Source of the DNA: Echinarachnius parma
Taxonomy: Eukaryota > Echinodermata > Echinoidea > Clypeasteroida > Echinarachniidae
Direction of reading: 5' to 3'
Assembly (NCBI GenBank): GCA_037951105.1
Contig: JBAMJV010002937.1
Coordinates: 62,001-126,000 of the forward strand
DNA length: 64,000 nucleotides
In this document: positions 20,111 to 54,110 of the stretch, piece after piece
Numbering within the stretch: position 1 is the first letter of the stretch
How the letters are laid out: every line of letters starts with the position of its first letter
Position numbers and translations under genes: made by a program
The notes under the pieces: model-generated
What the model was told of the DNA's origin: nothing
The model's database searches: none
What the model saw: only the letters and a program-made list of their open reading frames with translations

Positions 20111-20629
20111 AAGGGGTATACCCGAATCAAACTTAGCATGAGGGCATACCATGATCAAACTAAGATGGGAGGGACATACCGGGATCAAACTTAGATGGGA
20201 GGGGCATACCGGGATCAAACTTAGATGGGAGGGGCATTCCAGTGACTAACTGAAATGGGAGGGGTTTACCGGTCTCAAACTCGGATGGGAGGGGCGTACA
20301 AATATCAAACAGATGTGAGGGACATACCAGAATAAAACTGATATGAGCGGGGCATATACCATGATCAAACTTAGATGGGATGGGCATATCGGGATCAAAA
20401 TGAGATGGAAGGGGCATACCAGAATCAAACTAAGATGGGAGGGGCATACCAGAATCAAACTAAGATGGGAGGGGCATACCAGAATCAAACTAAGATGGGA
20501 GGGGCATACTATAATGAAACTGAGATGGGAGGGGCATACCAGAATCAAACTAAGATGGGAGGGGCATACCAGAATCAAACTAAGATGGGAGGGGCATACC
20601 AGAATCAAACTAAGATGGGAGGGGCATAC
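20111..20629 (+). repeat. 30-bp minisatellite, middle block
   Basis: Tandem units reading GGGGCATACC-AGAATCAAAC-TAAGATGGGA. They are diverged at the left and nearly perfect from 20400 to 20629. Because the unit is a multiple of three, several frames stay open on both strands. The last five bases, CATAC (20625-20629), are the target duplication of the Gypsy element that begins at 20630. Confidence 0.95.
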
Positions 20630-21184: not shown

Positions 21185-24100
21185 TTACGAAGAAAGTCTA
21201 TCTGGGTTTTTTTTCTTTCTCTGAGACCTTCTCAACTCTGGAGGTCTTGGAGAGTGTGCACGGGTGATTTCTACGTCTCCCTGTACACTGGGGTGACTTT
21301 GAGCATCTGAGGTGCTGAGGTCATAACCTTCCTGTGATGTGCCAGGGGACCTATCTCCCAAATTGGAGTTAGATAGGGGTTCTTCCACTACAGACCTAGG
21401 GGTGGTACGCATGTCCATTAGGACAGGTCTATTAGTCCGTTTGTCAGGGTTTTGGACGGACCTGAACTCCGTTCCTCCTAATTGATCCTGATCTACTTCT
21501 ACTTGTGCTTCTAATCTAGGGAGCATTTGATCTACATGTCTTCGCCAAATGCCTGTTTGCACTTGTATTTTGTACATCAGTGGTCCTTCTCTGTCCACTA
21601 TCACACCTGGAACCCACTTTTGTTTTCCTACGTAGTCCCTAGCAAGAACAGAGTCTCCTACTTCAAACTCGCGCAACTTGTCTGCTTTGCTGCGTTTGTC
21701 CCTAAGAGACGCTTGGTAGTGTAGCTGCTCAGCGTACCTACGTTCCATGTTTGGACGCAAATTGTCCAACCGTATGCGCAGTTGTCTTCTCATGAAGAGT
21801 GCTGCTGGCGATTCCCCTGTGACCGCATGTGCTGCATTGCGATATGCCAGTAGGAATCTGTCTAGTTTGGCTTGTGCAGATCCGGTATCGGATCGGGCAG
21901 CGCGCACAGCTTGTTTGAGTGTTTGTACAAAACGCTCAGCCTGACCGTTCGTACTCGGATGATACGGTGCGCTGCATTTGTGTGTGATTCCGTTCTTGTG
22001 CACAAATTCTTGAAACTCTGCGGAGGTGAACTGACTACCGTTGTCAGTCACTATGAATTGCGGTAATCCATACCTCGCAAACATGGTTCGTAGGGTATCG
22101 ATAGTGCGTTCTGAGGTGATACTCGACATGATGAATACCTCGGGCCATTTAGAGTACGCATCTACCACGACCATGTACGTCAGACCTTCGAATGGTCCCG
22201 CGAAATCAACATGGATTCTTTCCATTGGCTTGGACGCTGGAATCCATGGGTGCAGCAGCGTTTGCGATGGTTGGTTTTGAACAACCTGGCACGTTCCGCA
22301 TCGTTTTGCATTGTCCTGTATGTGTTGGTCTATCTGTGGCCACCACACGTAACTCCTTGCCACTGCCTTCATCTTTACCACACCTAAGTGACCCTCGTGC
22401 AGTTCCGCAAGAACTGATTTTTGCATTTTGTCAGGGATGATGATGCGCATTCCCCACATGAGTATGCCTCGTTCAATCGTAATCTCTGTTCTGCGCTTAA
22501 AGAATGGTTTCAAATCGCTATCTTCAGCAGCTAGCTGCTTCGGCCAGCCATCCAAAGTATGTCTCAATACTCTAGACAGAACAGGATCTTTGCGTGTTGC
22601 GTTTCGCAATTCATTGTGTGTTGTTGGAAGCATTTCCACGTGACACACCGACACGTTTTCAGGCTCGCAACCATCTGGTTTTGCATTTGCGTCTGGAAGT
22701 CTGGAAAAGCAGTCTGCGTTTGCATTTTCCTTCGATGTGCGGTACCGTATTTCGTAGTTGAAGCCTGCAAGGTACATTGCCCATCTTTGCATGCGTTCTG
22801 CCGCTAGCGCAGGCAAGCTCTTGTGTGGGCCTAGCAGTGCAGTGAGTGGCTTATTGTCTGTAATAAGCGTGAATCTACGACCGTAGATGTACATATAGAA
22901 TTTGCGCAAAGCGAACACAATTGCCAATGCTTCTCGCTCAATTTGCGGATACTTCCGTTCCGTTTTGGTGAGAGACCTTGACGCGAACTGTATTGGTCTT
23001 TCTTCACCGTTTGGAAGTATGTGCGACAGCACCGCGCCGATGCCTATGGGACTGGCATCTGTTGCTATGGAGATCGGTATCTCCGGATCATAGTGAACCA
23101 AGAAATCGGAAGCTCGCAGCAATTCTTTCGAATGCTTGAATGCCCGTTCCGCTTCATCGCTCCACACAAACTTGTGATCCGATTTCAACAATTCTGTGAG
23201 CGGCGCTATTTCGTGAGCCAAATTCGGGATGCACTTGCGGTAATAATTCAACATTCCCAAATACGACCGCAACTGTGATACATCTGTGGGACTAGGGAGA
23301 TTTTCGATCTGTTCCACTTTCTCCTCTACTGCGTGTACGCCTTTTGCATCGATCACGTGACCTAGGAATTGTACCGATTCCTGCACGAACTGGCACTTCT
23401 CTTTCTTTAGTGTCAAGTTCCGATCTTCAAGACGTGTGAGCACTTGGTCCAAGTTTGCCAGGTGCTCTTCCGGGGTTCGACCCGTGACGAGAATGTCGTC
23501 CAGATACACTTGTACACCCGGTAGCCCTTGCAACACTTGCTCTATGGTATTCTGCCAAATGGCAGGCGCGCTGGTGATACCGAACACAAGGCGATTCTGC
23601 TGAAACAAACCTTTGTGGGTTGAAACGACCAAGAACTGTTTGGACTCTTCATCCAACTCAATTTGATTGTAGGCGTGTGCCAAATCAAGGGTTGAGAATA
23701 GCATGCCTCCGCTCAGATTAGCCAATATGTCTTCTACATTGATATTGGGGGGCGGTACCTGGTCTAAGACTGGGTTTACTGTGGTCTTATAGTTGCCACA
23801 AATGCGAACTGACTCATCTTTCTTTGGTATAGCTACAATAGCTGTGCTCCACTCACTATGTTCAATGGGTGTAAGGACACCACATTTTTGTAGTCTATCC
23901 AACTCTTGTTCTACTTGGCCTCTCATAGCATATGGAACTTTGTATGGCCTAGTAGTCACTGGTCTAGCTCCCTCTTGGACTGAGATGTGTGCTTTAGCCT
24001 GGGTCATCTTACCTAGCCTATTCTCAAACAATTTTGAATGTTTGTCTAGGACTCTATCAAGCTCATTCGAGTGTAGTACCTGGACCTGGTCCTGGTCTAC

Positions 24101-24229
24101 CTTCGGATCTAGGCCTAAGGCTCTATCTCTATGAAGCCTAGTTTGGACTTGAGACTTCCACTCAAGAGGTATTATCCCTAGCCAATCACGACCCATCAAT
24201 GTGTACTCAGTATGTTCGACTACGAACAT
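21185..24229 (-). CDS. pol: Gypsy Pol: reverse transcriptase, RNase H, integrase
   Basis: A 1014-residue open frame that copies the element's RNA and integrates the cDNA. The start is the end of the protease region (LMGRDWLG near residue 11). RT spans about 85-260 with catalytic YLDD at 242-245. RNase H follows with TDAS (D391) and TDNKPL near 457. Integrase has an HHCC zinc region (H611, H614, C644, C647) and a complete DD35E triad (D675, D729, E765). A GPY/F-like module lies at about 855-905 (REGPLMYKI). A basic, charged tail ends the protein. No stop interrupts it. The frame opens only at 24232, just after a TAG, and is shifted by one base from the protease frame, so the first methionine shown is probably not a true start. 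It resembles the Gypsy group often annotated as K02A2.6-like. Confidence 0.95.
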   Translation of the reverse strand: MFVVEHTEYTLMGRDWLGIIPLEWKSQVQTRLHRDRALGLDPKVDQDQVQVLHSNELDRVLDKHSKLFENRLGKMTQAKAHISVQEGARPVTTRPYKVPYAMRGQVEQELDRLQKCGVLTPIEHSEWSTAIVAIPKKDESVRICGNYKTTVNPVLDQVPPPNINVEDILANLSGGMLFSTLDLAHAYNQIELDEESKQFLVVSTHKGLFQQNRLVFGITSAPAIWQNTIEQVLQGLPGVQVYLDDILVTGRTPEEHLANLDQVLTRLEDRNLTLKKEKCQFVQESVQFLGHVIDAKGVHAVEEKVEQIENLPSPTDVSQLRSYLGMLNYYRKCIPNLAHEIAPLTELLKSDHKFVWSDEAERAFKHSKELLRASDFLVHYDPEIPISIATDASPIGIGAVLSHILPNGEERPIQFASRSLTKTERKYPQIEREALAIVFALRKFYMYIYGRRFTLITDNKPLTALLGPHKSLPALAAERMQRWAMYLAGFNYEIRYRTSKENANADCFSRLPDANAKPDGCEPENVSVCHVEMLPTTHNELRNATRKDPVLSRVLRHTLDGWPKQLAAEDSDLKPFFKRRTEITIERGILMWGMRIIIPDKMQKSVLAELHEGHLGVVKMKAVARSYVWWPQIDQHIQDNAKRCGTCQVVQNQPSQTLLHPWIPASKPMERIHVDFAGPFEGLTYMVVVDAYSKWPEVFIMSSITSERTIDTLRTMFARYGLPQFIVTDNGSQFTSAEFQEFVHKNGITHKCSAPYHPSTNGQAERFVQTLKQAVRAARSDTGSAQAKLDRFLLAYRNAAHAVTGESPAALFMRRQLRIRLDNLRPNMERRYAEQLHYQASLRDKRSKADKLREFEVGDSVLARDYVGKQKWVPGVIVDREGPLMYKIQVQTGIWRRHVDQMLPRLEAQVEVDQDQLGGTEFRSVQNPDKRTNRPVLMDMRTTPRSVVEEPLSNSNLGDRSPGTSQEGYDLSTSDAQSHPSVQGDVEITRAHSPRPPELRRSQRKKKNPDRLSS

Positions 24230-24417
24230 AGTCTACCACTATACGAACCGTACCTTACCTGGACTTGGACTTTACCGACTGGTTTGACCTTTTCACCTGT
24301 GAAACTCGTGAAGGACTTCCCCGTCTCTTCCATCTGTACATGAGACAAGCACTTTTCATAGTATGACAATGGAATCATGCTCACACCAGACCCTGTGTCA
24401 ACTTCCATTTCTACTAT
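24220..24417 (-). pseudogene. pro: Gypsy protease segment, cut upstream by the insertion and frameshifted downstream
   Basis: The frame from 24417 to the stop at 24220 encodes a retropepsin start with the catalytic motif VDTGSGVS and the usual basic/hydrophobic continuation (GEKVKPVGKV). Upstream it meets the insertion border at 24418. Downstream it runs out of frame within about 12 bases of where the RT frame opens. No slippery heptamer is evident in that overlap, so a one-base indel is more likely than programmed frameshifting, though the latter cannot be excluded. In the uninterrupted element this would have been continuous with gag. Confidence 0.85.
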
Positions 24418-24610
24418 TTAGGTGGGCTGTACATCATACAGACCACCTCATAATTTCGTTAGAATTGCCTTTATTTATTTATTAGGTGGGCTGTACATCA
24501 TACAGACCACCTCATAATTTCGTTAGAATTGCCTTTATTTATTTATTTATTAGGTGGGCTGTACATCATACAGACCACCTCATAATTTCGTTAGAATTGC
24601 CTTTATTATT
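24418..24610 (+). repeat. 5' head of the array, three tandem copies
   Basis: Copies begin at 24418, 24482 and 24550 (about 64-68 bp each), every one with TTAGGTGGGCTG, a hairpin formed by GGTGGGCTGT and ACAGACCACC, the word TAGAATTGCC, and a TTTA run. They precede the first body unit. A separate two-copy head lies at 29446-29590. Confidence 0.9.
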
Positions 24611-27600
24611 ATTATTATTATTATTATTCTTTATTTTTCTTATTTCCAATCACTTTTTTGTTACCAAGATAACTTGAAAATGGCTCAATCAAGTGCCTTG
24701 AAATTTGGCACACATATATATAGGCATATGGACAAAGCAAAATAAGGTTTTGAACCCTGACCTTGACTGATGACGTCATCTAGGCGCCATTTTGTAAAAT
24801 TTTCTGAATATCTTCTCATGATCATATCTTCATAACGAAAAGTTGTTTCTCATTCATATTTATCATGATCAAGGTCAATATCCGTCCGGTCAATTTCAGG
24901 TCAAAAAACGCGCGCGCATGCGTACGTGCGCGCGTCAGCGCGCGCGCAAAATTTTAAAATGTTCAAAATCGTCGCAAATTCATTTTGGATACGTTTTAGG
25001 CCATTTTAAGCATTTTACGAAAAAACGCGCACACGCGCATGCGCGCGCGTTTTCGCGCGTACTGGCATTTTGCAACATAGAATCGCCGAATTTTCTCTGT
25101 TATCATATTTAGCCCATCTTTCCAAGCATTTTGATACCTTGTTCACCTTTTTCTGACTAGTAAAAACGCAATGAGCTTCCGTTCAAGAAACATGTCCGTG
25201 CGCGCGAGCTCTTGTAATACATAGCATATATGGGCAAAAACATGCCTATACAAAATTCATTGTAACTCTTCAGAATGGATGGGAACTCCCAAGTTTTTTT
25301 TCATATTTGGATAGATTATGAGTCGGAGATATGATTTCATGTCTCATTTGATCCTCAATTAACTCATGGCGTCATCATAATGGCCTCCGAACTCAAAATT
25401 TCAATTTGCATATTATGACGTCAGCATATTTTTGGAAAATTGATTGTATCTCTGTAAATATTGATCGATTTTCTTCCAAATTTTGATATGTTCTAGCTGA
25501 GACAATTCTCTACAAATGTAATAACCACGATTTTTCATTTGGACAAAGGCATCATGGCGTATTTTTGCGATTTAAGGAGGCATGTCATTTTTTAACATTT
25601 TGCGTGTATTCTCTATGGGACATGACTTTTTTTCAAAACTGGATTCTACATTCCCGTCTTTCGCGACCAATATCTTCTTCGTTTTAGCTTCGTTTACGCT
25701 GAACTTCGAGTATGTTGTAGCTGAGACAATAAGCTATCTCAAATGAGCCCTTGATTATGTCTTTAATTTTAGTTCGACCAGCCCACCTATACTTGTTCTA
25801 AACAAGTATTACAATTCTAGTTATTATTATTATTATTATTCTTTATTTTTCTTATTTCCAATCACTTTTTTGTTACCACGATAACTTGAAAATGGCTCAA
25901 TCAAGTGCCTTGAAATTTGGCACACATATATATAGGCATATGGACAAAGCAAAATAAGGTTTTGAACCCTGACCTTGACTGATGACGTCATCTAGGCGCC
26001 ATTTTGTAAAATTTTCTGAATATCTTCTCATGATCATATCTTCATAACGAAAAGTTGTTTCTCATTCATATTTATCATGATCAAGGTCAATATCCGTCCG
26101 GTCAATTTCAGGTCAAAAAACGCGCGCGCATGCGTACGTGCGCGCGTCAGCGCGCGCGCAAAATTTTAAAATGTTCAAAATCGTCGCAAATTCATTTTGG
26201 ATACGTTTTAGGCCATTTTAAGCATTTTACGAAAAAACGCGCACACGCGCATGCGCGCGCGTTTTCGCGCGTACTGGCATTTTGCAACATAGAATCGCCG
26301 AATTTTCTCTGTTATCATATTTAGCCCATCTTTCCAAGCATTTTGATACCTTGTTCACCTTTTTCTGACTAGTAAAAACGCAATGAGCTTCCGTTCAAGA
26401 AACATGTCCGTGCGCGCGAGCTCTTGTAATACATAGCATATATGGGCAAAAACATGCCTATACAAAATTCATTGTAACTCTTCAGAATGGATGGGAACTC
26501 CCAAGTTTTTTTTCATATTTGGATAGATTATGAGTCGGAGATATGATTTCATGTCTCATTTGACCCTCAATTAACTCATGGCGTCATCATAATGGCCTCC
26601 GAACTCAAAATTTCAATTTGCATATTATGACGTCAGCATATTTTTGGAAAATTGATTGTATCTCTGTAAATGTTGATCGATTTTCTTCCAAATTTTGATA
26701 TGTTCTAGCTGAGACAATTCTCTACAAATGTGATAATCACGATTTTTCATTTTGACAAAGGCATCATGGCGTATTTTTGCGATTTAAGGAGGCATGTCAT
26801 TTTTTAACATTTTGCGTGTATTCTCTATGGGACATGACTTTTTTTCAAAACTGGATTCTACATTCCCGTCTTTCGCGACCAATATCTTCTTCGTTTTAGC
26901 TTCGTTTACGCTGAACTTCGAGTATGTTGTAGCTGAGACAATAAGCTATCTCAAATGAGCCCTTGATTATGTCTTTAATTTTAGTTCGACCAGCCCACCT
27001 ATACTTGTTCTAAACAAGTATTACAATTCTAGTTTATTATTATTATTCTTTATTTTTCTTATTTCCAATCACTTTTTTGTTACCACGATAACTTGAAAAT
27101 GGCTCAATCAAGTGCCTTGAAATTTGGCACACATATATATAGGCATATGGACAAAGCAAAATAAGGTTTTGAACCCTGACCTTGACTGATGACGTCATCT
27201 AGGCGCCATTTTGTAAAATTTTCTGAATATCTTCTCATGATCATATCTTCATAACGAAAAGTTGTTTCTCATTCATATTTATCATGATCAAGGTCAATAT
27301 CCGTCCGGTCAATTTCAGGTCAAAAAACGCGCGCGCATGCGTACGTGCGCGCGTCAGCGCGCGCGCAAAATTTTAAAATGTTCAAAATCGTCGCAAATTC
27401 ATTTTGGATACGTTTTAGGCCATTTTAAGCATTTTACGAAAAAACGCGCACACGCGCATGCGCGCGCGTTTTCGCGCGTTTTCGCGCGTACTGGCATTTT
27501 GCAACATAGAATCGCCGAATTTTCTCTGTTATCATATTTAGCCCATCTTTCCAAGCATTTTGATACCTTGTTCACCTTTTTCTGACTAGTAAAAACGCAA

Positions 27601-29445
27601 TGAGCTTCCGTTCAAGAAACATGTCCGTGCGCGCGAGCTCTTGTAATACATAGCATATATGGGCAAAAACATGCCTATACAAAATTCATTGTAACTCTTC
27701 AGAATGGATGGGAACTCCCAAGTTTTTTTTCATATTTGGATAGATTATGAGTCGGAGATATGATTTCATGTCTCATTTGACCCTCAATTAACTCATGGCG
27801 TCATCATAATGGCCTCCGAACTCAAAATTTCAATTTGCATATTATGACGTCAGCATATTTTTGGAAAATTGATTGTATCTCTGTAAATGTTGATCGATTT
27901 TCTTCCAAATTTTGATATGTTCTAGCTGAGACAATTCTCTACAAATGTGATGATCACGATTTTTCATTTTGACAAAGGCATCATGGCGTATTTTTGCGAT
28001 TTAAGGAGGCATGTCATTTTTTAACATTTTGCGTGTATTCTCTATGGGACATGACTTTTTTTCAAAACTGGATTCTACATTCCCGTCTTTCGCGACCAAT
28101 ATCTTCTTCGTTTTAGCTTCGTTTACGCTGAACTTCGAGTATGTTGTAGCTGAGACAATAAGCTATCTCAAATGAGCCCTTGATTATGTCTTTAATTTTA
28201 GTTCGACCAGCCCACCTATACTTGTTCTAAACAAGTATTACAATTCTAGTTATTCTTTATTTTTCTTATTTCCAATCACTTTTTTGTTAGCAAGATAACT
28301 TGAAAATGGCTCAATCAAGTGCCTTGAAATTTGGCACACATATATATAGGCATATGGACAAAGCAAAATAAGGTTTTGAACCCTGACCTTGACTGATGAC
28401 GTCATCTAGGCGCCATTTTGTAAAATTTTCTGAATATCTTCTCATGATCATATCTTCATAACGAAAAGTTGTTTCTCATTCACATTTATCATGATCAAGG
28501 TCAATATCCGTCCGGTCAATTTCAGGTCAAAAAACGCGCGCGCATGCGTACGTGCGCGCGTCAGCGCGCGCGCAAAATTTTAAAATGTTCAAAATCGTCC
28601 CAAATTCATTTTGGATACGTTTTAGGCCATTTTAAGCATTTTACGAAAAAACGCGCACACGCGCATGCGCGCGCGTTTTCGCGCGTACTGGCATTTTGCA
28701 ACATAGAATCGCCGAATTTTCTCTGTTATCATATTGAGCCCATCTTTCCAAGCATTTTGATACCTTGTTCACCTTTTTCTGACTAGTAAAAACGCAATGA
28801 GCTTCCGTTCAAGAAACATGTCCGTGCGCGCGAGCTCTTATAATACATAGCATATATGGGCAAAAACATGCCTATACAAAATTCATTGTAACTCTTCAGA
28901 ATGGATGGGAACTCCCAATTTTTTTTCATATTTGAATAGATTATGAGTCGGAGATATGATTTCATGTCTCATTTGACCCTCAATTAACACATGGCGTCAT
29001 CATAACGGCCTTCCAACTCAAAATTTCAATTAGCATATTATGACGTCAGCATATTTTTGGAAAATTGATTGTATCTCTGTAAATGTTGATCGATTTTCTT
29101 CCAAATTTTGATATGTTCTAGCTGAGACAATTTTCTACAAATGTAATAACCACGATTTTTCATTTTGACAAAGGCATCATGGCGTATTTTTGCGATTTAA
29201 GGAGGCATGTCATTTTTTAACATTTTGCGTGTATTCTCTATGGGACATGACTTTTTTTCAAAACTGGATTCTACATTCCCGTCTTTCGCGACCAATATCT
29301 TCTTCGTTTTAGCTTCGTTTACGCTGAACTTCGAGTATGTTGTAGCTGAGACAATAAGCTATCTCAAATGAGCCCTTGATTATGTCTTTAATTTTACTTC
29401 GACCAGCCCACCTATACTTGTTCTAAACAAGTATTACAATTCTAG

Positions 29446-29590
29446 TTTATTAGGTGGGCTGTACATCATACAGACCACCTCATAATTTCGTTAGAATTGC
29501 CTTTATTTATTTATTTATTAGGTGGGCTGTACATCATACAGACCACCTCATAATTTCGTTAGAATTGCCTTTATTTATTTATTTATTTAT
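29446..29590 (+). repeat. Second 5' head block inside the array, two copies
   Basis: Directly after unit 4 ends in CTAG (29445), the head sequence reappears twice (near 29449 and 29517) before unit 5. The array is therefore two head-to-tail concatemers: head plus four units, then head plus seven units. Units 2-4 and 6-11 start directly in the TTA microsatellite without a head. Confidence 0.9.
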
Positions 29591-32500
29591 TATTATTATT
29601 CTTTATTTTTCTTATTTCCAATCACTTTTTTGTTACCACGATAACTTGAAAATGGCTCAATCAAGTGCCTTGAAATTTGGCACACATATATATAGGCATA
29701 TGGACAAAGCAAAATAAGGTTTTGAACCCTGACCTTGACTGATGACGTCATCTAGGCGCCATTTTGTAAAATTTTCTGAATATCTTCTCATGATCATATC
29801 TTCATAACGAAAAGTTGTTTCTCATTCATATTTATCATGATCAAGGTCAATATCCGTCCGGTCAATTTCAGGTCAAAAAACGCGCGCGCATGCGTACGTG
29901 CGCGCGTCAGCGCGCGCGCAAAATTTTAAAATGTTCAAAATCGTCGCAAATTCATTTTGGATACGTTTTAGGCCATTTTAAGCATTTTACGAAAAAACGC
30001 GCACACGCGCATGCGCGCGCGTTTTCGCGCGTACTGGCATTTTGCAACATAGAATCGCCGAATTTTCTCTGTTATCATATTTAGCCCATCTTTCCAAGCA
30101 TTTTGATACCTTGTTCACCTTTTTCTGACTAGTAAAAACGCAATGAGCTTCCGTTCAAGAAACATGTCCGTGCGCGCGAGCTCTTGTAATACATAGCATA
30201 TATGGGCAAAAACATGCCTATACAAAATTCATTGTAACTCTTCAGAATGGATGGGAACTCCCAAGTTTTTTTTCATATTTGGATAGATTATGATTCGGAG
30301 ATATGATTTCATGTCTCATTTGACCCTCAATTAACTCATGGCGTCATCATAATGGCCTCCGAACTCAAAATTTCAATTTGCATATTATGACGTCAGCATA
30401 TTTTTGGAAAATTGATTGTATCTCTGTAAATGTTGATCGATTTTCTTCCAAATTTTGATATGTTCTAGCTGAGACAATTCTCTACAAATGTGATAATCAC
30501 AATTTTTCATTTTGACAAAGGCATCATGGCGTATTTTTGCGATTTAAGGAGGCATGTCATTTTTTAACATTTTGCGTGTATTCTCTATGGGACATGACTT
30601 TTTTTCAAAACTGGATTCTACATTCCCGTCTTTCGCGACCAATATCTTCTTCGTTTTAGCTTCGTTTACGCTGAACTTCGAGTATGTTGTAGCTGAGACA
30701 ATAAGCTATCTCAAATGAGCCCTTGATTATGTCTTTAATTTTAGTTCGACCAGCCCACCTATACTTGTTCTAAACAAGTATTACAATTCTAGTTATTCTT
30801 TATTTTTCTTATTTCTAATCACTTTTTTGTTAGCAAGATAACTTGAAAATGGCTCAATCAAGTGCCTTGAAATTTGGCACACATATATATAGGCATATGG
30901 ACAAAGCAAAATAAGGTTTTGAACCCTGACCTTGACTGATGACGTCATCTAGGCGCCATTTTGTAAAATTTTCTGAATATCTTCTCATGATCATATCTTC
31001 ATAACGAAAAGTTGTTTCTCATTCATATTTATCATGATCAAGGTCAATATCCGTCCGGTCAATTTCAGGTCAAAAAACGCGCGCGCATGCGTACGTGCGC
31101 GCGTCAGCGCGCGCGCAAAATTTTAAAATGTTCAAAATCGTCGCAAATTCATTTTGGATACGTTTTAGGCCATTTTAAGCATTTTACGAAAAAACGCGCA
31201 CACGCGCATGCGCGCGCGTTTTCGCGCGTACTGGCATTTTGCAACATAGAATCGCCGAATTTTCTCTGTTATCATATTTAGCCCATCTTTCCAAGCATTT
31301 TGATACCTTGTTCACCTTTTTCTGACTAGTAAAAACGCAATGAGCTTCCGTTCAAGAAACATGTCCGTGCGCGCGAGCTCTTGTAATACATAGCATATAT
31401 GGGCAAAAACATGCCTATACAAAATTCATTGTAACTCTTCAGAATGGATGGGAACTCCCAATTTTTTTTCATATTTAGATAGATTATGAGTCGGAGATAT
31501 GATTTCATGTCTCATTTGACCCTCAATTAACTCATGGCGTCATCATAACGGCCTTCCAACTCAAAATTTCAATTAGCATATTATGACGTCAGCATATTTT
31601 TGGAAAATTGATTGTATCTCTGTAAATGTTGATCGATTTTCTTCCAAATTTTGATATGTTCTAGCTCAGACAATTCTCTACAAATGTGATGATCACGATT
31701 TTTCATTTTGACAAAGGCATCATGGCGTATTTTTGCGATTTAAGGAGGCATGTCATTTTTTAACATTTTGCGTGTATTCTCTATGGGACATGACTTTTTT
31801 TCAAAACTGGATTCTACATTCCCGTCTTTCGCGACCAATATCTTCTTCGTTTTAGCTTCGTTTACGCTGAACTTCGAGTATGTTGTAGCTGAGACAATAA
31901 GCTATCTCAAATGAGCCCTTGATTATGTCTTTAATTTTAGTTCGACCAGCCCACCTATACTTGTTCTAAACAAGTATTACAATTCTAGTTTATTTATTAT
32001 TATTCTTTATTTTTCTTATTTCCAATCACTTTTTTGTTAGCAAGATAACTTGAAAATGGCTCAATCAAGTGCCTTGAAATTTGGCACACATATATATAGG
32101 CATATGGACAAAGCAAAATAAGGTTTTGAACCCTGACCTTGACTGATGACGTCATCTAGGCGCCATTTTGTAAAATTTTCTGAATATCTTCTCATGATCA
32201 TATCTTCATAACGAAAAGTTGTTTCTCATTCATATTTATCATGATCAAGGTCAATATCCGTCCGGTCAATTTCAGGTCAAAAAACGCGCGCGCATGCGTA
32301 CGTGCGCGCGTCAGCGCGCGCGCAAAATTTTAAAATGTTCAAAATCGTCGCAAATTCATTTTGGATACGTTTTAGGCCATTTTAAGCATTTTACGAAAAA
32401 ACGCGCACACGCGCATGCGCGCGCGTTTTCGCGCGTACTGGCATTTTGCAACATAGAATCGCCGAATTTTCTCTGTTATCATATTTAGCCCATCTTTCCA

Positions 32501-35500
32501 AGCATTTTGATACCTTGTTCACCTTTTTCTGACTAGTAAAAACGCAATGAGCTTCCGTTCAAGAAGCATGTCCGTGCGCGCGAGCTCTTGTAATACATAG
32601 CATATATGGGCAAAAACATGCCTATACAAAATTCATTGTAACTCTTCAGAATGGATGGGAACTCCCAAGTTTTTTTTCATATTTGGATAGATTATGAGTC
32701 GGAGATATGATTTCATGTCTCATTTGACTCTCAATTAACTCATGGCGTCATCATAACGGCCTTCCAACTCAAAATTTCAATTAGCATATTATTACGTCAG
32801 CATATTTTTGGAAAATTTATTGTATCTCTGTAAATATTGATCGATTTTCTTCCAAATTTTGATATGTTCTAGCTCAGACAATTTTCTACAAATGTAATAA
32901 CCACGATTTTTCATTTTGACAAAGGCATCATGGCGTATTTTTGCGATTTAAGGAGGCATGTCATTTTTTAACATTTTGCGTGTATTCTCTATGGGACATG
33001 ACTTTTTTTCAAAACTGGATTCTACATTCCCGTCTTTCGCGACCAATATCTTCTTCGTTTTAGCTTCGTTTACGCTGAACTTCGAGTATGTTGTAGCTGA
33101 GACAATAAGCTATCTCAAATGAGCCCTTGATTATGTCTTTAATTTTAGTTCGACCAGCCCACCTATACTTGTTCTAAACAAGTATTACAATTCTAGTTAT
33201 TATTATTATTCTTTATTTTTCTTATTTCCAATCACTTTTTTGTTACCACGATAACTTGAAAATGGCTCAATCAAGTGCCTTGAAATTTGGCACACATATA
33301 TATAGGCATATGGACAAAGCAAAATAAGGTTTTGAACCCTGACCTTGACTGATGACGTCATCTAGGCGCCATTTTGTAAAATTTTCTGAATATCTTCTCA
33401 TGATCATATCTTCATAACGAAAAGTTGTTTCTCATTCATATTTATCATGATCAAGGTCAATATCCGTCCGGTCAATTTCAGGTCAAAAAACGCGCGCGCA
33501 TGCGTACGTGCGCGCGTCAGCGCGCGCGCAAAATTTTAAAATGTTCAAAATCGTCGCAAATTCATTTTGGATACGTTTTAGGCCATTTTAAGCATTTTAC
33601 GAAAAAACGCGCACACGCGCATGCGCGCGCGTTTTCGCGCGTACTGGCATTTTGCAACATAGAATCGCCGAATTTTCTCTGTTATCATATTTAGCCCATC
33701 TTTCCAAGCATTTTGATACCTTGTTCACCTTTTTCTGACTAGTAAAAATGCAATGAGCTTCCGTTCAAGAAACATGTCCGTGCGCGCGAGCTCTTGTAAT
33801 ACATAGCATATATGGGCAAAAACATGCCTATACAAAATTCATTGTAACTCTTCAGAATGGATGGGAACTCCCAAGTTTTTTTTCATATTTGGATAGATTA
33901 TGAGTCGGAGATATGATTTCATGTCTCATTTGACCCTCAATTAACTCATGGCGTCATCATAATGGCCTCCGAACTCAAAATTTCAATTTGCATATTATGA
34001 CGTCAGCATATTTTTGGAAAATTGATTGTATCTCTGTAAATGTTGATCGATTTTCTTCCAAATTTTGATATGTTCTAGCTGAGACAATTCTCTACAAATG
34101 TGATCATCACGATTTTTCATTTTGACAAAGGCATCATGGCGTATTTTTGCGATTTAAGGAGGTATGTCATTTTTTCACATTTTGCGTGTATTCTCTATGG
34201 GACATGACTTTTTTTCAAAACTGGATTCTACATTCCCGTCTTTCGCGACCAATATCTTCTTCGTTTTAGCTTCGTTTACGCTGAACTTCGAGTATGTTTT
34301 AGCTGAGACAATAAGCTATCTCAAATGAGCCCTTGATTATGTCTTTAATTTTAGTTCGACCAGCCCACCTATACTTGTTCTAAACAAGTATTACAATTCT
34401 AGTTATTATTATTCTTTATTTTTCTTATTTCCAATCACTTTTTTGTTACCACGATAACTTGAAAATGGCTCAATCAAGTGCCTTGAAATTTGGCACACAT
34501 ATATATAGGCATATGGACAAAGCAAAATAAGGTTTTGAACCCTGACCTTGACTGATGACGTCATCAAGGCGCCATTTTGTAAAATTTTCTGAATATCTTC
34601 TCATGATCATATCTTCATAACGAAAAGTTGTTTCTCATTCATATTTATCATGATCAAGGTCAATATCCGTCCGGTCAATTTCAGGTCAAAAAACGCGCGC
34701 GCATGCGTACGTGCGCGCGTCAGCGCGCGCGCAAAATTTTAAAATGTTCAAAATCGTCGCAAATTCATTTTGGATACGTTTTAGGCCATTTTAAGCATTT
34801 TACGAAAAAACGCGCACACGCGCATGCGCGCGCGTTTTCGCGCGTACTGGCATTTTGCAACATAGAATCGCCGAATTTTCTCTGTTATCATATTTAGCCC
34901 ATCTTTCCAAGCATTTTGATACCTTGTTCACCTTTTTCTGACTAGTAAAAACGCAATGAGCTTCCGTTCAAGAAACATGTCCGTGCGCGCGAGCTCTTGT
35001 AATACATAGCATATATGGGCAAAAACATGCCTATACAAAATTCATTGTAACTCTTCAGAATGGATGGGAACTCCCAATTTTTTTTCATATTTGGATAGAT
35101 TATGAGTCGGAGATATGATTTCATGTCTCATTTGACCCTCAATTAACACATGGCGTCATCATAACGGCCTTCCAACTCAAAATTTCAATTAGCATATTAT
35201 GACGTCAGCATATTTTTGGAAAATTGATTGTATCTCTGTAAATGTTGATCGATTTTCTTCCAAATTTTGATATGTTCTAGCTCAGACAATTTTCTACAAA
35301 TGTAATAACCACGATTTTTCATTTTGACAAAGGCATCATGGCGTATTTTTGCGATTTAAGGAGGCATGTCATTTTTTAACATTTTGCGTGTATTCTCTAT
35401 GGGACATGAGTTTTTTTCAAAACTGGATTCTACATTCCCGTCTTTCGCGACCAATATCTTCTTCGTTTTAGCTTCGTTTACGCTGAACTTCGAGTATGTT

Positions 35501-38006
35501 GTAGCTGAGACAATAAGCTATCTCAAATGAGCCCTTGATTATGTCTTTAATTTTAGTTCGACCAGCCCACCTATACTTGTTCTAAACAAGTATTACAATT
35601 CTAGTTTATTATTATTATTCTTTATTTTTCTTATTTCCAATCACTTTTTTGTTACCTTAATAACTTGAAAATGGCTCAATCAAGTGCCTTGAAATTTGGC
35701 ACACATATATATAGGCATATGGACAAAGCAAAATAAGGTTTTGAACCCTGACCTTGACTGATGACGTCATCTAGGCGCCATTTTGTAAAATTTTCTGAAT
35801 ATCTTCTCATGATCATATCTTCATAACGAAAAGTTGTTTCTCATTCATATTTATCATGATCAAGGTCAATATCCGTCCGGTCAATTTCAGGTCAAAAAAC
35901 GCGCGCGCATGCGTACGTGCGCGCGTCAGCGCGCGCGCAAAATTTTAAAATGTTCAAAATCGTCGCAAATTCATTTTGGATACGTTTTAGGCCATTTTAA
36001 GCATTTTACGAAAAAACGCGCACACGCGCATGCGCGCGCGTTTTCGCGCGTACTGGCATTTTGCAACATAGAATCGCCGAATTTTCTCTGTTATCATATT
36101 TAGCCCATCTTTCCAAGCATTTTGATACCTTGTTCACCTTTTTCTGACTAGTAAAAACGCAATGAGCTTCCGTTCAAGAAACATGTCCGTGCGCGCGAGC
36201 TCTTGTAATACATAGCATATATGGGCAAAAACATGCCTATACAAAATTCATTGTAACTCTTCAGAATGGATGGGAACTCCCAATTTTTTTTTCATATTTG
36301 GATAGATTATGAGTCGGAGATATGATTTCATGTCTCATTTGACCCTCAATTAACTCATGGCGTCATCATAATGGCCTCCGAACTCAAAATTTCAATTTGC
36401 ATATTATGACGTCAGCATATTTTTGGAAAATTTATTGTATCTCTGTAAATATTGATCGATTTTCTTCCAAATTTTGATATGTTCTATCTGAGACAATTCT
36501 CTACAAATGTGATGATCACGATTTTTCATTTTGACAAAGGCATCATGGCGTATTTTTGCGATTTAAGTAGGCATGTCATTTTTTAACATTTTGCGTGTAT
36601 TCTCTATGGGACATGACTTTTTTTCAAAACTGGATTCTACATTCCCGTCTTTCGCGACCAATATCTTCTTCGTTTTAGCTTCGTTTACGCTGAACTTCGA
36701 GTATGTTGTAGCTGAGACAATAAGCTATCTCAAATGAGCCCTTGATTATGTCTTTAATTTTAGTTCGACCAGCCCACCTATACTTGTTCTAAACAAGTAT
36801 TACAATTCTAGTTATTCTTTATTTTTCTTATTTCCAATCACTTTTTTGTTACCACGATAACTTGAAAATGGCTCAATCAAGTGCCTTGAAATTTGGCACA
36901 CATATATATAGGCATATGGACAAAGCAAAATAAGGTTTTGAACCCTGACCTTGACTGATGACGTCATCTAGGCGCCATTTTGTAAAATTTTCTGAATATC
37001 TTCTCATGATCATATCTTCATAACGAAAAGTTGTTTCTCATTCATATTTATCATGATCAAGGTCAATATCCGTCCGGTCAATTTCAGGTCAAAAAACGCG
37101 CGCGCATGCGTACGTGCGCGCGTCAGCGCGCGCGCAAAATTTTAAAATGTTCAAAATCGTCGCAAATTCATTTTGGATACGTTTTAGGCCATTTTAAGCA
37201 TTTTACGAAAAAACGCGCACACGCGCATGCGCGCGCGTTTTCGCGCGTTTTCGCGCGTACTGGCATTTTGCAACATAGAATCGCCGAATTTTCTCTGTTA
37301 TCATATTTAGCCCATCTTTCCAAGCATTTTGATACCTTGTTCACCTTTTTCTGACTAGTAAAAACGCAATGAGCTTCCGTTCAAGAAACATGTCCGTGCG
37401 CGCGAGCTCTTGTAATACATAGCATATATGGGCAAAAACATGCCTATACAAAATTCATTGTAACTCTTCAGAATGGATGGGAACTCCCAAGTTTTTTTTC
37501 ATATTTGGATAGATTATGAGTCGGAGATATGATTTCATGTCTCATTTGACCCTCAATTAACTCATGGCGTCATCATAATGGCCTCCGAACTCAAAATTTC
37601 AATTTGCATATTATGACGTCAGCATATTTTTGGAAAATTGATTGTATCTCTGTAAATGTTGATCGATTTTCTTCCAAATTTTGATATGTTCTAGCTGAGA
37701 CAATTCTCTACAAATGTGATGATCACGATTTTTCATTTTGACAAAGGCATCATGGCGTATTTTTGCGATTTAAGGAGGCATGTCATTTTTTAACATTTTG
37801 CGTGTATTCTCTATGGGACATGACTTTTTTTCAAAACTGGATTCTACATTCCCGTCTTTCGCGACCAATATCTTCTTCGTTTTAGCTTCGTTTACGCTGA
37901 ACTTCGAGTATGTTGTAGCTGAGACAATAAGCTATCTCAAATGAGCCCTTGATTATGTCTTTAATTTTAGTTCGACCAGCCCACCTATACTTGTTCTAAA
38001 CAAGTA

Positions 38007-39167
38007 TTACAATTCTAGTTTACCTTCAATTTCTACTGGTGCCAGAATGGCTCCATTCTCAGACTTGGACCTAGATGTTGAATTTACTCTAAGCATGAAC
38101 ATTGTGTTATCATACACTACTCTGTCCTTACGTCTATTGTTACCATGGTTACCATTGTTATCACCATGTTCAGATTCATTCTCTACATCACTAGAGTCAG
38201 ATTCAATCTCATCACTACTTATCACTTCACATTTCTTTGTGTGATCTTTTGACTTTGACTTTGCTCTGAACTTAGTGTTTTTACTCTTCTGTTCATTGTT
38301 CTGTTTCTTTACATGTTTGTCTTTGTTTCGACATTTTCTCTCCAAGTGTCCTTTCTTTTGGCAGTTTCTGCATATTGCTGTTTTGTGCCAACAATCCTCT
38401 GGAGCGTGTCTTCCACCACACCGGTAACATTCGGCTTGGTCCTTGTTCCTGTAACCGCTGTTTGACGCTGCATTACTGCGCTGTTTGCCATAGCCATGTC
38501 CATGATGAACCGCATTCACACCGTTGCTGGTCCTGGGCCTGCTACCATCTGTGCGTGAACTCTGTGACCGCATAGCACGGGCTTCCCCTGCTGCTGTTTC
38601 TCGGCTGAGGGCAAAGTCTACAGCCTGTTGAAATGTAAGCTGTGCATTTTCGGAAGCCTTTTCCATCAATTGGAGTGATGTCGATTCAGAGGTGATCCCG
38701 CTTATAAAACGGTCTCTCAATTGCTCATCCAATTTGTCATTGTAACTGCAATTTAGGCTCAAATGTTTTAGTTGCACAACATACTCACTCGTTGATTCAT
38801 CTGGTGCTTGATCCCGGCGAATAAACTTACGCCGTTCTGCCACAACCATGGGGGTACTTTTCAAGTGCTTTCGTAGAATTGCTTTCAGTCCCTGGTATGA
38901 CTTGGTGAGTGGCGAGGCTGGTGCGACCAAATCTCGAACCAATCCATAGTAGTGAGCCCCGATCGAGTGCAAAAACATTGCAGTGACTTGTTTATCGCCC
39001 TGCCCCTCTCCGCTCGCATCCAGTTGTGCGGCTGGTACCGTTAGCCCATTCGCGATCAGGTACAGTTCGAAGCGCTCGACGTAGCAATCAAAATCTTCGT
39101 TGCCGTCATAGCTCGAACTAAACGGTGGCAAAAATGCCCGATTTTGCCCCACATTTGCACTCGTCAT
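38007..39167 (-). pseudogene. gag: Gypsy Gag (capsid/nucleocapsid), separated from pro-pol
   Basis: Structural protein that packages the element RNA. The first ATG in frame is at 39167-39165 (MTSANVGQ); codons upstream to 39233 fall in the likely primer-binding region next to the LTR and begin with TTG. About 380 residues remain. The N-terminal two thirds is a capsid-like region (FDCYVERFELYL, RRDQAPDESTSEYVVQLK). Two zinc knuckles follow, CYRCGGRHAPEDC (CX2CX3HX4C) and CRNCQKKGHLERKC (CX2CX4HX4C), then a lysine-rich and an acidic stretch. The last codons before the stop at 38007 are read from the inserted array, so the natural continuation into protease is lost. Confidence 0.9.
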
Positions 39168-39405: not shown

Positions 39406-39960
39406 CATACTATAATGAAACTGAGATGGGAGGGGCATACCAGAATCAAACTAAGATGAGAGGGGCATACCAGAATCAAACTAAGATGGGAGGGGCATAC
39501 CAGAATCAAACTGAGATGGGAGGGGCATACTATAATGAAACTGATATGGGAGGGGCATACCATAATCAGACTGAGATGGGAGGAGTATACCATAATCAAA
39601 CTAAGATGGGAGGGGCATACCAGAATCAAACTAAGATGGGAGGGGCATACCAGAATCAAACTAAGATGGGAGGGGCATAAACCGGGATCTAAATTAGATA
39701 GGAGGAGCTTACCGGGATCAAATTGAGATGGGAGGGGCATACCAGAATCAAACTGAGATGGGAGGGGCTTACCAGAATCAAACTGAGATGGGAGGATATA
39801 GCAGGATCAAATTGAGGACGGGCATATTGGTATCATTGGCGTCGGCACGGTCAAGCTCAGATGCACTACCTCCTTGGATGCACGGAATGGCATACCGGGG
39901 CCAGTGGCATAGTTAAGATCAAACTTTAGATGGGAATATGAACTGGCATAATTATGTAAC
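39406..39960 (+). repeat. 30-bp minisatellite, right block
   Basis: Resumes with CATAC (target duplication) and continues with about 13 units of GGGGCATACCAGAATCAAAC-type sequence to about 39800. It then degenerates to 39960, where GCATACCGGGGCCAGTGGCATAG and single units are still visible. It was one array with 18423-18646 and 20111-20629 before the two insertions. Confidence 0.9.
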
Positions 39961-50321: not shown

Positions 50322-53300
50322 ATGGTGATGATAGGCCTACTTAAATTGATAATGACTGCGCTCCTCATTCTCCAATGGAATGCGCAGGGAATGAACGGCC
50401 ATAGTGGAGAATTAATTAATTATTTAAATTCTCAAGAAAAAGTTGTGCATTTGATTTGTATTCAGGAAACTTGGTATGAGGGGAATACTATAATTGATAT
50501 TCCAAATTATTCATGTTTTAGTAAAAATAGAATTAATAAACGTAGAGGTGGATGTGCTATATATATACATACCTCTATTAATTATGAGTATGTGGAAATT
50601 GAAACAGACATAGAAATGCAATTAGTAAATATACATTATAGAGATACTCACTTAGCAGTCGTTAATTATTATAACCCATGCAATGATATAACTAACGACA
50701 TTTTAGATACATTGGTTAAACATGTTAAAAATATAGACAAATTATTGATAGTGGGAGATTTTAATTCCCATAATAGTTTATGGGGAAGTGAAAAAATTGA
50801 TAAAAATGGACGATTGATAGAAGATTTTTTGTTGAAACAGAATTTGGTTATTTTAAATGATGGATCTGGTACACGTCTTGACCCCATTTCGGGGAGAACG
50901 TCATGTTTAGACTTATCCTTGATCTCATCGCGGATAGCCAGTAAGTGCACCTGGTCGGTCTTTGCAGACAAGTTCGGAAGTGACCACTTCCCAGTCTGCA
51001 TTCAATATAGTGTTAATAATATGGAAAAAGAAAAAAAGGATAATCCATTTTTTAGGTGGTCCTTTAAAAAAATGGATTGGACAGCCTTTCATAGATTGAG
51101 TGAAGAAAGGATGAATATTGAAACATTATATGATGATGATGTAAATGTATTTTATGCAAACTTTATGGAATGTTTATATGATATATTAAATGAGTTATTA
51201 AGTAGAAAGAAAGGAAATGGGTGTAATGCAGCAGTCCCATGGTGGACAGAAGAATGTAATGTAAAAATAAAAGCAAGAAATAAGGAAAAAAATAAATTGA
51301 TGAAATTTTGGAGTGTTGAAAATGTTCAATTATATAAAGATAAGAAAAGAGAAGCTCAGTGGACTATACGGCAAGCAAAACGAACCTTTTGGTTAAATTA
51401 TGCCATGAAATTGAATCGTTTTACATCTGTTTCGGAATTATGGAATTTTATTCGAATGTTAAATGGCAATACAGGTAAGAAAGTCAAACAAATGTCGGTA
51501 ATATATAAAGGAGAACAGGTGATAGTAAATGACCAGGATAAAGCTGACGAGTTTGGAGAGTATTTTACATCCATTGGAAACTCAGTTAGTGGTCATAAGA
51601 CTAAGAAGAGAGAAGTGCTTGAAGCGTTTAAGCAAATTGATGGTGAGAAAAGTTGCAATAATACTTTTGATTTGGTAATAAATGAACCATTCACAATGTT
51701 GGAGTTGGAAAATACTTTGAAGGAGAAAAAAGTATCGACTCCTGGGGAAGATGGCATAACTTATGAAATTTACCAAAAAATGTCCAAAATTGCCAAGATG
51801 GTCTTGTTGAATTTATTTAATAAGATATGGAGTACTGGCTTTGTACCAGAACAATGTAAACATGCGATTTTAATTCCTGTATTGAAGTTGAATAAGAATG
51901 CTACTAGGACGTCATCTTACCGACCTATTTCTTTGTTATCTTGTTTTATGAAAATTATGGAGAGTATGGTAAAAGAAAGATTACAATGGTATTTAGATAA
52001 GAATGAAATATTAAACAATAATCAGAGTGGCTTTAGAAAAAATCGAGGCTCTATAGATAATATTGTGCATTTAGAAAATGAGATACAAAGACATTTACGA
52101 GTTGGTATGAAGACTCTAGCAGTATTTATTGACTTAGAAAAAGCTTACGATACCCTGTGGACGAAGGGACTCATTGTTAAGCTTAGTAATATAGGCCTTA
52201 AAGGAAATATTCTTGTTTTCTTAAGGAATTATTTGTTAGACCGTACATTTCAGGTTCAAGTAGGGGAAAGCAAATCCCAAATTATGCACCCTAAAAATGG
52301 CTTACCTCAAGGTAGCATTCTTAGTCCTTTATTGTTTAATGTGATGTTGAAGGATATACCTACGCCCCCTGACATTCATAATTTAGTTTACGCAGATGAC
52401 TGTGTCATATGGAAATCTGGTTATGATATAAAGACAAATACACAATTGATACAAAATTGTATTAATACATTGGATTCATGGTTTTTGTCATGGGGTTTGA
52501 AAATGTCTCTAGAGAAAACAGTTCCTGTCCTCTTTTCTAATAAATCAAATGACGTTATTAAATTATATTTAAGAGAACATGAATTGCTACCTGAAAATCA
52601 GCATAAGTATCTTGGAGTTATATTTGATAAACGCCTTACTTGGCGGCCTCACATAACAGATGTTGCAAATCGGTGTAAACGTAAATTAAATGTAGTCAAG
52701 AGTTTAGCTCATGCTAAATGGAGTGGGGATGCTAAAGAACTTTTGATGGTATATAAATCTCTGATTTTATCAACTATAGATTACGCTTGCGAAGCTTACG
52801 ATTCAGCGGCACCCAGTATTAAAAATATTTTAAATTCAGTTCAGTACCAAAGTTTATATGTATGTGCCGGCGCACGCAAGGGGACATCTCTCAGAGACTT
52901 ACAAGTGGAATTAGGAGAGATGCCCTTAGACTTACGAAGAGAAATGTCATGTTGTAGACTTAAAAAGCGTATTGAAAGTGTAAAAAATCATCCTTTAAAA
53001 GAGGATATCAAAGATTGTTGGCAATTTCATATATATGGAGGTAATAATTCTAGAACAGCCTTTGGCCAACGATCAATGGAATTGATGACAACAATTGACT
53101 TTGAAGTTGAGGAGATGTGTTGCTCCAGAATCCCTTTTTGGCACTTGAACGTACCCTTGATATCAATGGAATTGCAGGATTATATTTGTAAAAGAGACAA
53201 TCAATTGTTTCAAAGGCAAGCAACAATAGAAATGATAAATACAAAATGGAAAAATTATTTGCAAATATATACTGATGGATCCAAATCACCAGAACAGGAG

Positions 53301-54110
53301 AGTGCAGCCGCCGCCTTCTTTGTCCCTTACTATGATTATTCATTATCTAAGAGACTTTCAAATTATACATCCTCTTATAGGGCAGAGATGGCGGCTATTG
53401 TGCTTGCTTTAGAATGGCTATATAATCATCCCAGTTTGTATACGGGGGCAGTCATTTTTAGCGACTCACTAAGTTCTTTACAAGCCATAAATAGTTGCAA
53501 AGACGAATTTCCTGTATACGAAATTTTATATTTGTGTTCACAATTGAAGAATAAAAGGATGCTTGTATATTTTGAATGGATTCCAAGCCATTGTGGTCTA
53601 AATGGTAATGAGATTGTGGATATAGAAGCGAAACGAGGTTTGAACAAAAAAATAGAAATTGATAATAAATTAGCAAGATATGAAGTTAATAGTGTTATAA
53701 AGAAATGGATGTATGCTAAATGGCAGAAAAGATGGGAAGGAACGGAATCATGTCTTAAAGACGTGCAAAAAAATGTTAAGAGTATATATATATGTAAATT
53801 AAATAATAGAAAAAATGAAAGTATTTTGCATTGTTTAAGAATGGGAAACATTGGTTTAAATGTAAATTTATGTGTATTGAAAAAGCACGATACTGGGTAT
53901 TGCCCTAATTGTGAGGGTATATTTGAAACTATTACACATTTTTTGTGTCAGTGCCCAGAGTACATAGTTCAAAGGGCCATGTTGATGGCTGAAACAGGTT
54001 TATATGAGGAAAATAAAATAATGTCTTTGTTAAATTCTTTAGAGCGACCCATCCAACAAGCTCTTGTTGATTATGTGAAAAGAACCGGGAGATTACCCAT
54101 ACTATTCTAG
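50322..54110 (+). CDS. LINE ORF2-type polyprotein: endonuclease, RT, RNase H
   Basis: A 1262-residue frame without stops that nicks target DNA and copies the element RNA onto it. Apurinic-type endonuclease at about 15-228: LQWNAQGMNG, IQET (E49), GDFNSHNSLWG near 145, SDHFPV near 220. RT at about 470-780: YRPISLLSC near 533, GFRKNRG near 570, FIDLEKAYD near 602, LPQGSILSPLLFN near 661, catalytic YADD at 690-693. RNase H at about 980-1105 keeps D985, E1022, D1048, H1090 and D1100. A CX2CX8HX4C finger is at 1194-1211 (CPNCEGIFETITHFLCQC). All catalytic residues are present, so the protein may be active. ATG at 50322 gives a short leader before the endonuclease; a later in-frame ATG near residue 11 is also possible. 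Confidence 0.95.
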   Translation: MVMIGLLKLIMTALLILQWNAQGMNGHSGELINYLNSQEKVVHLICIQETWYEGNTIIDIPNYSCFSKNRINKRRGGCAIYIHTSINYEYVEIETDIEMQLVNIHYRDTHLAVVNYYNPCNDITNDILDTLVKHVKNIDKLLIVGDFNSHNSLWGSEKIDKNGRLIEDFLLKQNLVILNDGSGTRLDPISGRTSCLDLSLISSRIASKCTWSVFADKFGSDHFPVCIQYSVNNMEKEKKDNPFFRWSFKKMDWTAFHRLSEERMNIETLYDDDVNVFYANFMECLYDILNELLSRKKGNGCNAAVPWWTEECNVKIKARNKEKNKLMKFWSVENVQLYKDKKREAQWTIRQAKRTFWLNYAMKLNRFTSVSELWNFIRMLNGNTGKKVKQMSVIYKGEQVIVNDQDKADEFGEYFTSIGNSVSGHKTKKREVLEAFKQIDGEKSCNNTFDLVINEPFTMLELENTLKEKKVSTPGEDGITYEIYQKMSKIAKMVLLNLFNKIWSTGFVPEQCKHAILIPVLKLNKNATRTSSYRPISLLSCFMKIMESMVKERLQWYLDKNEILNNNQSGFRKNRGSIDNIVHLENEIQRHLRVGMKTLAVFIDLEKAYDTLWTKGLIVKLSNIGLKGNILVFLRNYLLDRTFQVQVGESKSQIMHPKNGLPQGSILSPLLFNVMLKDIPTPPDIHNLVYADDCVIWKSGYDIKTNTQLIQNCINTLDSWFLSWGLKMSLEKTVPVLFSNKSNDVIKLYLREHELLPENQHKYLGVIFDKRLTWRPHITDVANRCKRKLNVVKSLAHAKWSGDAKELLMVYKSLILSTIDYACEAYDSAAPSIKNILNSVQYQSLYVCAGARKGTSLRDLQVELGEMPLDLRREMSCCRLKKRIESVKNHPLKEDIKDCWQFHIYGGNNSRTAFGQRSMELMTTIDFEVEEMCCSRIPFWHLNVPLISMELQDYICKRDNQLFQRQATIEMINTKWKNYLQIYTDGSKSPEQESAAAAFFVPYYDYSLSKRLSNYTSSYRAEMAAIVLALEWLYNHPSLYTGAVIFSDSLSSLQAINSCKDEFPVYEILYLCSQLKNKRMLVYFEWIPSHCGLNGNEIVDIEAKRGLNKKIEIDNKLARYEVNSVIKKWMYAKWQKRWEGTESCLKDVQKNVKSIYICKLNNRKNESILHCLRMGNIGLNVNLCVLKKHDTGYCPNCEGIFETITHFLCQCPEYIVQRAMLMAETGLYEENKIMSLLNSLERPIQQALVDYVKRTGRLPILF

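Follow-up and report, generated by a model that had tools for sequence, protein, structure and literature searches.

How does a tandem array of eleven similar transposon bodies arise: from a single event that delivers it whole, or from separate arrivals at the same place? The question is raised by a stretch of 64,000 nt from Echinarachnius parma (contig JBAMJV010002937.1, positions 62,001 to 126,000, forward strand; hereafter the window), where an array of a non-autonomous Helentron (HINE, Helitron2 type) occupies positions 24419 to 38019 on the forward strand. The earlier note on this DNA had described the array as an eleven-unit, intact rolling-circle concatemer. Our analysis of the window and of the host genome (1.2 Gb, 14,790 contigs) points to another history. 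The HINE copies have probably inserted repeatedly into the (TTTA)n(TTA)m microsatellite that copies already in place carry shortly after their 5' end.

The limits of the array were confirmed: it opens with TAGG at 24419 and its terminal CTAGT ends at 38019, between a host T at 24418 and a host T at 38020. Eleven bodies of about 1.15 kb each were found, and each closes, as had been claimed, with CAGCCCACCTA, a hairpin and CAATTCTAG. These 3' ends, which comprise the subterminal inverted repeat (subTIR), the hairpin and CAATTCTAGT, lie at 25779..25821, 26991..27033, 28208..28250, 29404..29446, 30751..30793, 31947..31989, 33155..33197, 34361..34403, 35563..35605, 36770..36812 and 37977..38019. 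The 5' end TAGGTGGGCTG, on the other hand, occurs on the array strand only five times, at 24419, 24483, 24551, 29451 and 29519, in a stack of three at the start of the array and a stack of two at 29451. The complete 5' module (11-bp subTIR, 5' hairpin and TAGAATTG) covers 24419..24467 in the first copy, and the other copies cover 24483..24531 and 24551..24599 in the first stack and 29451..29499 and 29519..29567 in the internal one. The stacked copies are separated by what would be microsatellite remnants left of an inserted copy, at 24468..24482, where CC(TTTA)n ends in TAT|TAGG, and at 24532..24550; an uninterrupted microsatellite (24600..24628) leads from the third copy to body 1 (24629..25778). 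Nine of the eleven bodies open directly in a microsatellite remnant after CTAG. With eleven bodies that have 3' ends and only five 5' ends, the array therefore does not consist of eleven complete head-to-tail units. This count, the microsatellite remnants found at most joints and the mixed lineage of the units do not support its description as an intact rolling-circle concatemer. No open reading frame (ORF) of at least 180 aa lies inside the array, body 1 included; among the ORFs listed, one shares the final 13 bases of the array. An Rfam search of positions 24000-27100 gave no match.

The element is a HINE on account of its subTIRs, its 5' and 3' hairpins, its T|T site, its CTAG end and its microsatellite. 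The 11-bp repeat has its 5' copy (TAGGTGGGCTG) near the end and its 3' copy (CAGCCCACCTA) upstream of the 3' palindrome. Folded as DNA, the 5' end forms a hairpin between the subTIR and an adjacent complementary inverted repeat (-11.3 kcal/mol, z -5.76), and the palindrome of the 3' end has a 9-bp stem (-6.0 kcal/mol, z -4.15). The microsatellite follows directly behind the 5' module. This anatomy matches that of HINE/DINE-1 and Helitron2 elements as given in the accessible parts of PMC4067079, PMC7492417, PMC2374699 and PMC3627910, and the Helentron-type filing proposed before is retained.

The insertion site could be read from empty copies. The joined 36-base flank of the window array occurs uninterrupted elsewhere in the genome, with 10 exact matches and one with a single mismatch, presumably other copies of the interrupted retroelement; the empty-site search concerned the window copy only. 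These sites read CTATTTTACC, and the window reads CTATT, array, TTACC. With its ends TAGG and CTAGT, the array sits between T and T with no target duplication, as had been predicted. What the earlier note had named as telling against its claim (target duplications, inconstant ends, a lack of empty T|T sites) was not encountered where tested: no duplication is present at the window site, the ends are constant in the copies read, and the empty sites are exact. The retroelement interrupted here is most likely a Gypsy-type element, to which the pol ORF at 21185..24229 on the reverse strand (reverse transcriptase, RNase H and integrase) would belong. At the host sites read, T ends all 15 left host flanks, 7 of which end in TAT, and begins all 15 right host flanks. 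These flanks were taken from seventeen sequences, after exclusion of the left side of C379 and the right side of C831, which lie inside arrays. Against these 15 host sites read per side, the host genome contains 276 C(TTA)7 tracts.

We propose that an insertion would divide a resident copy, of structure 5' end-microsatellite-body-3' end, at TAT|T, and place the whole new copy there. The incoming copies would come from elsewhere in the genome and land in the resident microsatellite, which is a series of tandem TAT|T targets. Because each insertion splits the resident copy, 5' ends should pile up on the left, and bodies with their 3' ends on the right; because T|T is offered by the T-rich strand only, the arrays should run in one direction. 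The enzyme would be a Helentron Rep supplied in trans, and the element's own microsatellites would be hit as tandem preferred targets adjoining a putative Rep-binding end. Block duplication and loss may then reshape the arrays after nesting.

Nine arrays were read joint by joint. Microsatellite-tract remnants, and nothing else, were found in all 36 gaps between two 5' ends and in all 88 gaps between a 3' end and a body. The 28 joints between a 3' end and a 5' end likewise contained microsatellite remnants only or no gap at all, eight of them being direct. Among the 127 body starts in these arrays, 123 reach their own 3' end without an insertion of the family, three do not, and one is cut by the end of the sequence read. 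Yet, counted over both strands, one body of 1150 bases offers 15 TATT and 275 TT sites, compared to 6 and 12 for a typical microsatellite. Since bodies are rarely hit despite their greater number of TATT sites, position beside the 5' end, perhaps with bound Rep, may be part of the attraction.

The search of the host genome for insertions with these termini, suggested in the earlier note, yielded 1418 5' ends (at most 2 mismatches) and 1434 exact 3' ends. Exact patterns identified 802 5'-5' joints, 310 3'-5' joints, 856 3'-body joints and 594 5'-body joints; by subtraction there would be about 306 left host joints, about 268 right host joints and about 1,450 body starts, which are approximate figures, as the search tolerances differ and an array that runs off the end of a contig is counted as having a host joint there. 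Let '(' denote a 5' end, b the start of a body and ')' the 3' end of that body; insertion of a whole copy into a microsatellite then adds '((' and ')b' in equal numbers. Pure nesting therefore predicts as many 5'-5' as 3'-body joints, and the near-balance of 802 and 856 fits. At one locus, C660, which lies inside a host TTA tract, the entire array parses as (((b)b)((b)(b)b)b), with six opens and six closes, all matched. Within matched pairs, the left remnant and the right one show a negative correlation (r -0.40, 24 pairs, permutation P = 0.026). An exact-pattern search, which covered tail-to-tail joints only, found none of 0-30 bases; their absence fits expectation if only the T-rich strand is a target.

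The relatedness of the units provides a second line of evidence. Among 130 bodies, adjacent units differ on average at 11.9 positions, compared to 13.1 for units of different loci, and the nearest relative is the adjacent unit for only 7 of the 123 bodies examined in the nine arrays. Neighbours are mostly unrelated in the seven arrays that lack long block repeats: of their 57 bodies, 42 have the nearest relative outside the array and 7 inside it, the remaining 8 being tied. As nearest relatives are mostly elsewhere, most units of these simpler arrays seem to have arrived separately, and in-place duplication to have enlarged the big arrays. The per-array count of relatedness sets apart only two arrays, C201 and C396, both with long block repeats. 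No excess of similarity between neighbours was seen in the window, C515, C831, C660 and C382 (78% of shuffles as low), although this division into five and four arrays was chosen after the data had been seen. Within the window, the number of differences between bodies ranges from 0 to 23 over about 1,180 aligned positions. The compared body is the same in units 3 and 11, which also have in common a 10-bp CGCGCGTTTT insertion (27463-27489 and 37232-37258), a sign of duplication or of a shared source inside this array.

Differences are unevenly spread along the bodies. Divergence from the consensus, 0.76% on average, reaches 1.5% in columns 0-50 and 1.4-3.3% per 50 columns in columns 750-1000; it is 0.5-0.7% in columns 650-750 and 1050-1100, and 0.06-0.42% in the remainder. 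The divergence of columns 750-1000 and the mosaic of common sites look as if segments had been exchanged with another lineage. As the differences are concentrated and mosaic, the argument from relatedness rests on a limited set of sites. We also considered whether the constancy of the ends, set against bodies 0.76% off consensus, reflects selection before insertion; this was rejected, since the differences are clustered and the other columns, at 0.06-0.42%, come close to the ends in their divergence.

Several observations weigh against repeated nesting as the source of the arrays. Opens and closes are unbalanced in single arrays (the window has 5 opens and 11 closes, C201 has 27 and 50, and C619 has 13 and 11), and so are 5'-5' and 3'-body joints (3 to 9 in the window, 36 to 88 in the nine arrays together). 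Since single arrays deviate this strongly, the near-equality found genome-wide may be partly luck and is not proof. In the window, the closes of 6 of the 11 bodies are unmatched; bypass of the 3' end starting from an inner 5' end, loss of 5' ends between microsatellite tracts, or block duplication could account for this excess of bodies. The order of TTTA before TTA in matched remnants does not discriminate, being broken in 3 of 33 classifiable pairs where about 4 would be expected (by arithmetic from zone counts). The three body starts without an end of their own, two of them in one repeated block, are unexplained. Relatedness also has its contrary side. For C201 and C396 together, the nearest relative lies inside the array for 44 of 66 bodies, outside for 18, with 4 tied, and both arrays contain block duplications, of six consecutive units in C201 (L039-L046) and of seven in C396 (L050-L052); these higher-order repeats, with 0-1 differences per unit, may be an assembly error. 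When the nine arrays are taken together, adjacent units differ a little less than in shuffles across arrays (11.91 compared to 13.05, 0.2% of shuffles being as low). Rare variants are shared within arrays above chance, in 46 of 65 cases overall (chance 0.12), largely because of the block repeats of C201 and C396; without these two arrays, 16 of 25 doubletons are still within one array, 10 of the 16 being columns of one 10-bp insertion. Lastly, the bodies are mosaic, with four gametes at 105 of 231 site pairs, and exchange between copies may therefore blur descent.

Some of these points would be accounted for by satellite-type evolution, in which, after one insertion, the bodies and the 5' ends were each amplified, independently of one another, by unequal exchange and slippage while gene conversion mixed sequences of different loci. 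The block duplications of C201 and C396, the mosaic bodies and the rare variants shared within arrays are what such a process would leave. So are the nineteen stacked 5' ends that follow from eighteen consecutive 5'-5' joints on host contig C975 (74257-75334), whose partly periodic spacing suggests minisatellite-like block duplication of 5' ends. We nevertheless consider this explanation unlikely. The nearest relatives of most bodies in the seven simpler arrays lie at other loci; the two amplifications would be independent, yet 5'-5' and 3'-body joints are nearly equal in number genome-wide; and C660 resolves fully as nested monomers.

A further proposal, compatible with nesting, concerns how the cut is placed. 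The earlier note had pointed out a crossed second pairing of the ends, and it is present: next to the 11-bp complementarity, TAGAATTG (5' arm, 24460..24467) and CAATTCTA (3' arm, 38010..38017), both on the forward strand, are exactly complementary over 8 bp, in crossed order. If the ends were joined in a circle, both pairs together would fold into an H-type pseudoknot whose stems lie on either side of the T|T joint. Such a pseudoknot might set the joint where two stacked helices meet and guide cleavage, a scheme that we regard as improbable. After letter shuffling, a second pair of at least 8 bp turns up with a probability of 0.008 if the search space is narrow and of 0.047 if it is wider, and the 5' arm TAGAATTG is unchanged in 74 of 74 5' ends read, all identical. 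This very identity means that covariation is not readable within the family; the copies read, all of one family, are nearly identical. In 2 of 124, the 3' ends read carry a C to T change inside CAATTCTA. Moreover, the Helitron2 description in PMC3627910 names, in its accessible part, only the pair of asymmetric terminal inverted repeats (ATIRs).

Least probable is that a single round of rolling-circle synthesis overran the 3' terminator and delivered eleven units in one insertion. In its favour, the arrays are head-to-tail with Helitron-type ends, direct CTAGT|TAGG joints occur as a joined circle would give them (8 of 28 in the nine arrays, and 25 of the 100 listed among the 310 genome-wide), and 3'-end bypass and circles are documented for Helraiser in the part of PMC4778049 available. 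Against it, the window has five 5' ends for eleven bodies, the majority of joints contain microsatellite remnants, and neighbours do not derive from one template; for the window this origin appears already contradicted by the divergence of its units.

Repeated insertion into the resident microsatellite thus remains our preferred explanation. With more reserve, and with slightly less than even confidence, we suggest that the microsatellite of the HINE is a built-in landing pad, a tandem TTAT|T target beside a predicted Rep-binding 5' end, which would draw copies from the genome and turn the element into a satellite by ordered, one-directional nesting. If this is true, the microsatellite beside the 5' end of HINE/DINE-1 elements would have a function, and transposons would have a simple way of becoming satellite arrays, one that mimics rolling-circle concatemers. 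Joints and unit relatedness, taken together, offer a direct test that separates nesting from such concatemers in any genome, and the arrays may record the order of insertion, like nested brackets.

As to the source of the enzyme, the host genome has 52 matches to Rep (PF14214), some of them inside open frames that reach 4719 aa, a size that looks large for a Rep-helicase. Two exact-pattern searches were aimed at an autonomous partner and did not take in the ends of these Rep loci. The first, for 3' ends in which the base three positions upstream is changed, gave three matches, none on a contig with Rep; the second, for 5' ends followed by another base than usual, gave no match. A structural scan of the window and of L039-L058 for other Helentron-type ends returned four candidates, none convincing, and the 3' end had no match in IMG/VR. 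Elsewhere in the window, similar arrays of a 30-bp tandem repeat flank the HINE array at 20112-20629 and 39406-39816, near the Gypsy-type element, and at 50322-54110 an ORF of LINE type encodes 1262 aa that include endonuclease, reverse transcriptase and RNase H domains.

Parts of this scheme are already in print, as far as the accessible texts go: Helitron2 self-insertion (PMC5148889), and tandem Helitron arrays and dimers due to site preference (PMC12628747). A HINE that uses its own microsatellite as a repeated landing site was not found described in the entries and excerpts consulted in a PMC library that omits most subscription papers. HINE/DINE-1 elements, as presented in the portions available of PMC4067079, PMC7492417 and PMC2374699, share with the present element the 5' subTIR with its complementary inverted repeat, the microsatellite behind it, the 3' subTIR followed by a palindrome, and the TT target; their central tandem repeats, however, lie inside one element, whereas the present arrays consist of entire bodies, brought together, it appears, by insertion into the microsatellite. 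The Helitron2 elements of PMC3627910 have the same terminal 5' ATIR, a 5' hairpin that uses it and a 3' ATIR upstream of the 3' hairpin, but neither a role for a microsatellite nor a crossed second pair is described in the part accessible. FoHeli elements of Fusarium (PMC5148889) are also of Helitron2 type, and their repeated 5' ends were attributed to self-insertion; nested elements that have two 5' ends have been proposed to transpose. The excerpt available reports few cases, without a microsatellite pad and without long arrays that have many 3' ends. In plants, tandem arrays also derive from Helitrons (Xiong et al. 2016, as cited in the accessible part of PMC12628747); many of those have multiple 5' ends and a single 3' end, and were ascribed to rolling-circle amplification, unlike the present arrays with their many 3' ends and mostly unrelated units. 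A further parallel is offered by the Drosophila transposable element dimers of McGurk and Barbash (as summarized in the same portion of PMC12628747), where an insertion-site preference likewise seeds tandem copies; the difference is that here the preferred site is carried in tandem within the element itself, adjoining its 5' end.

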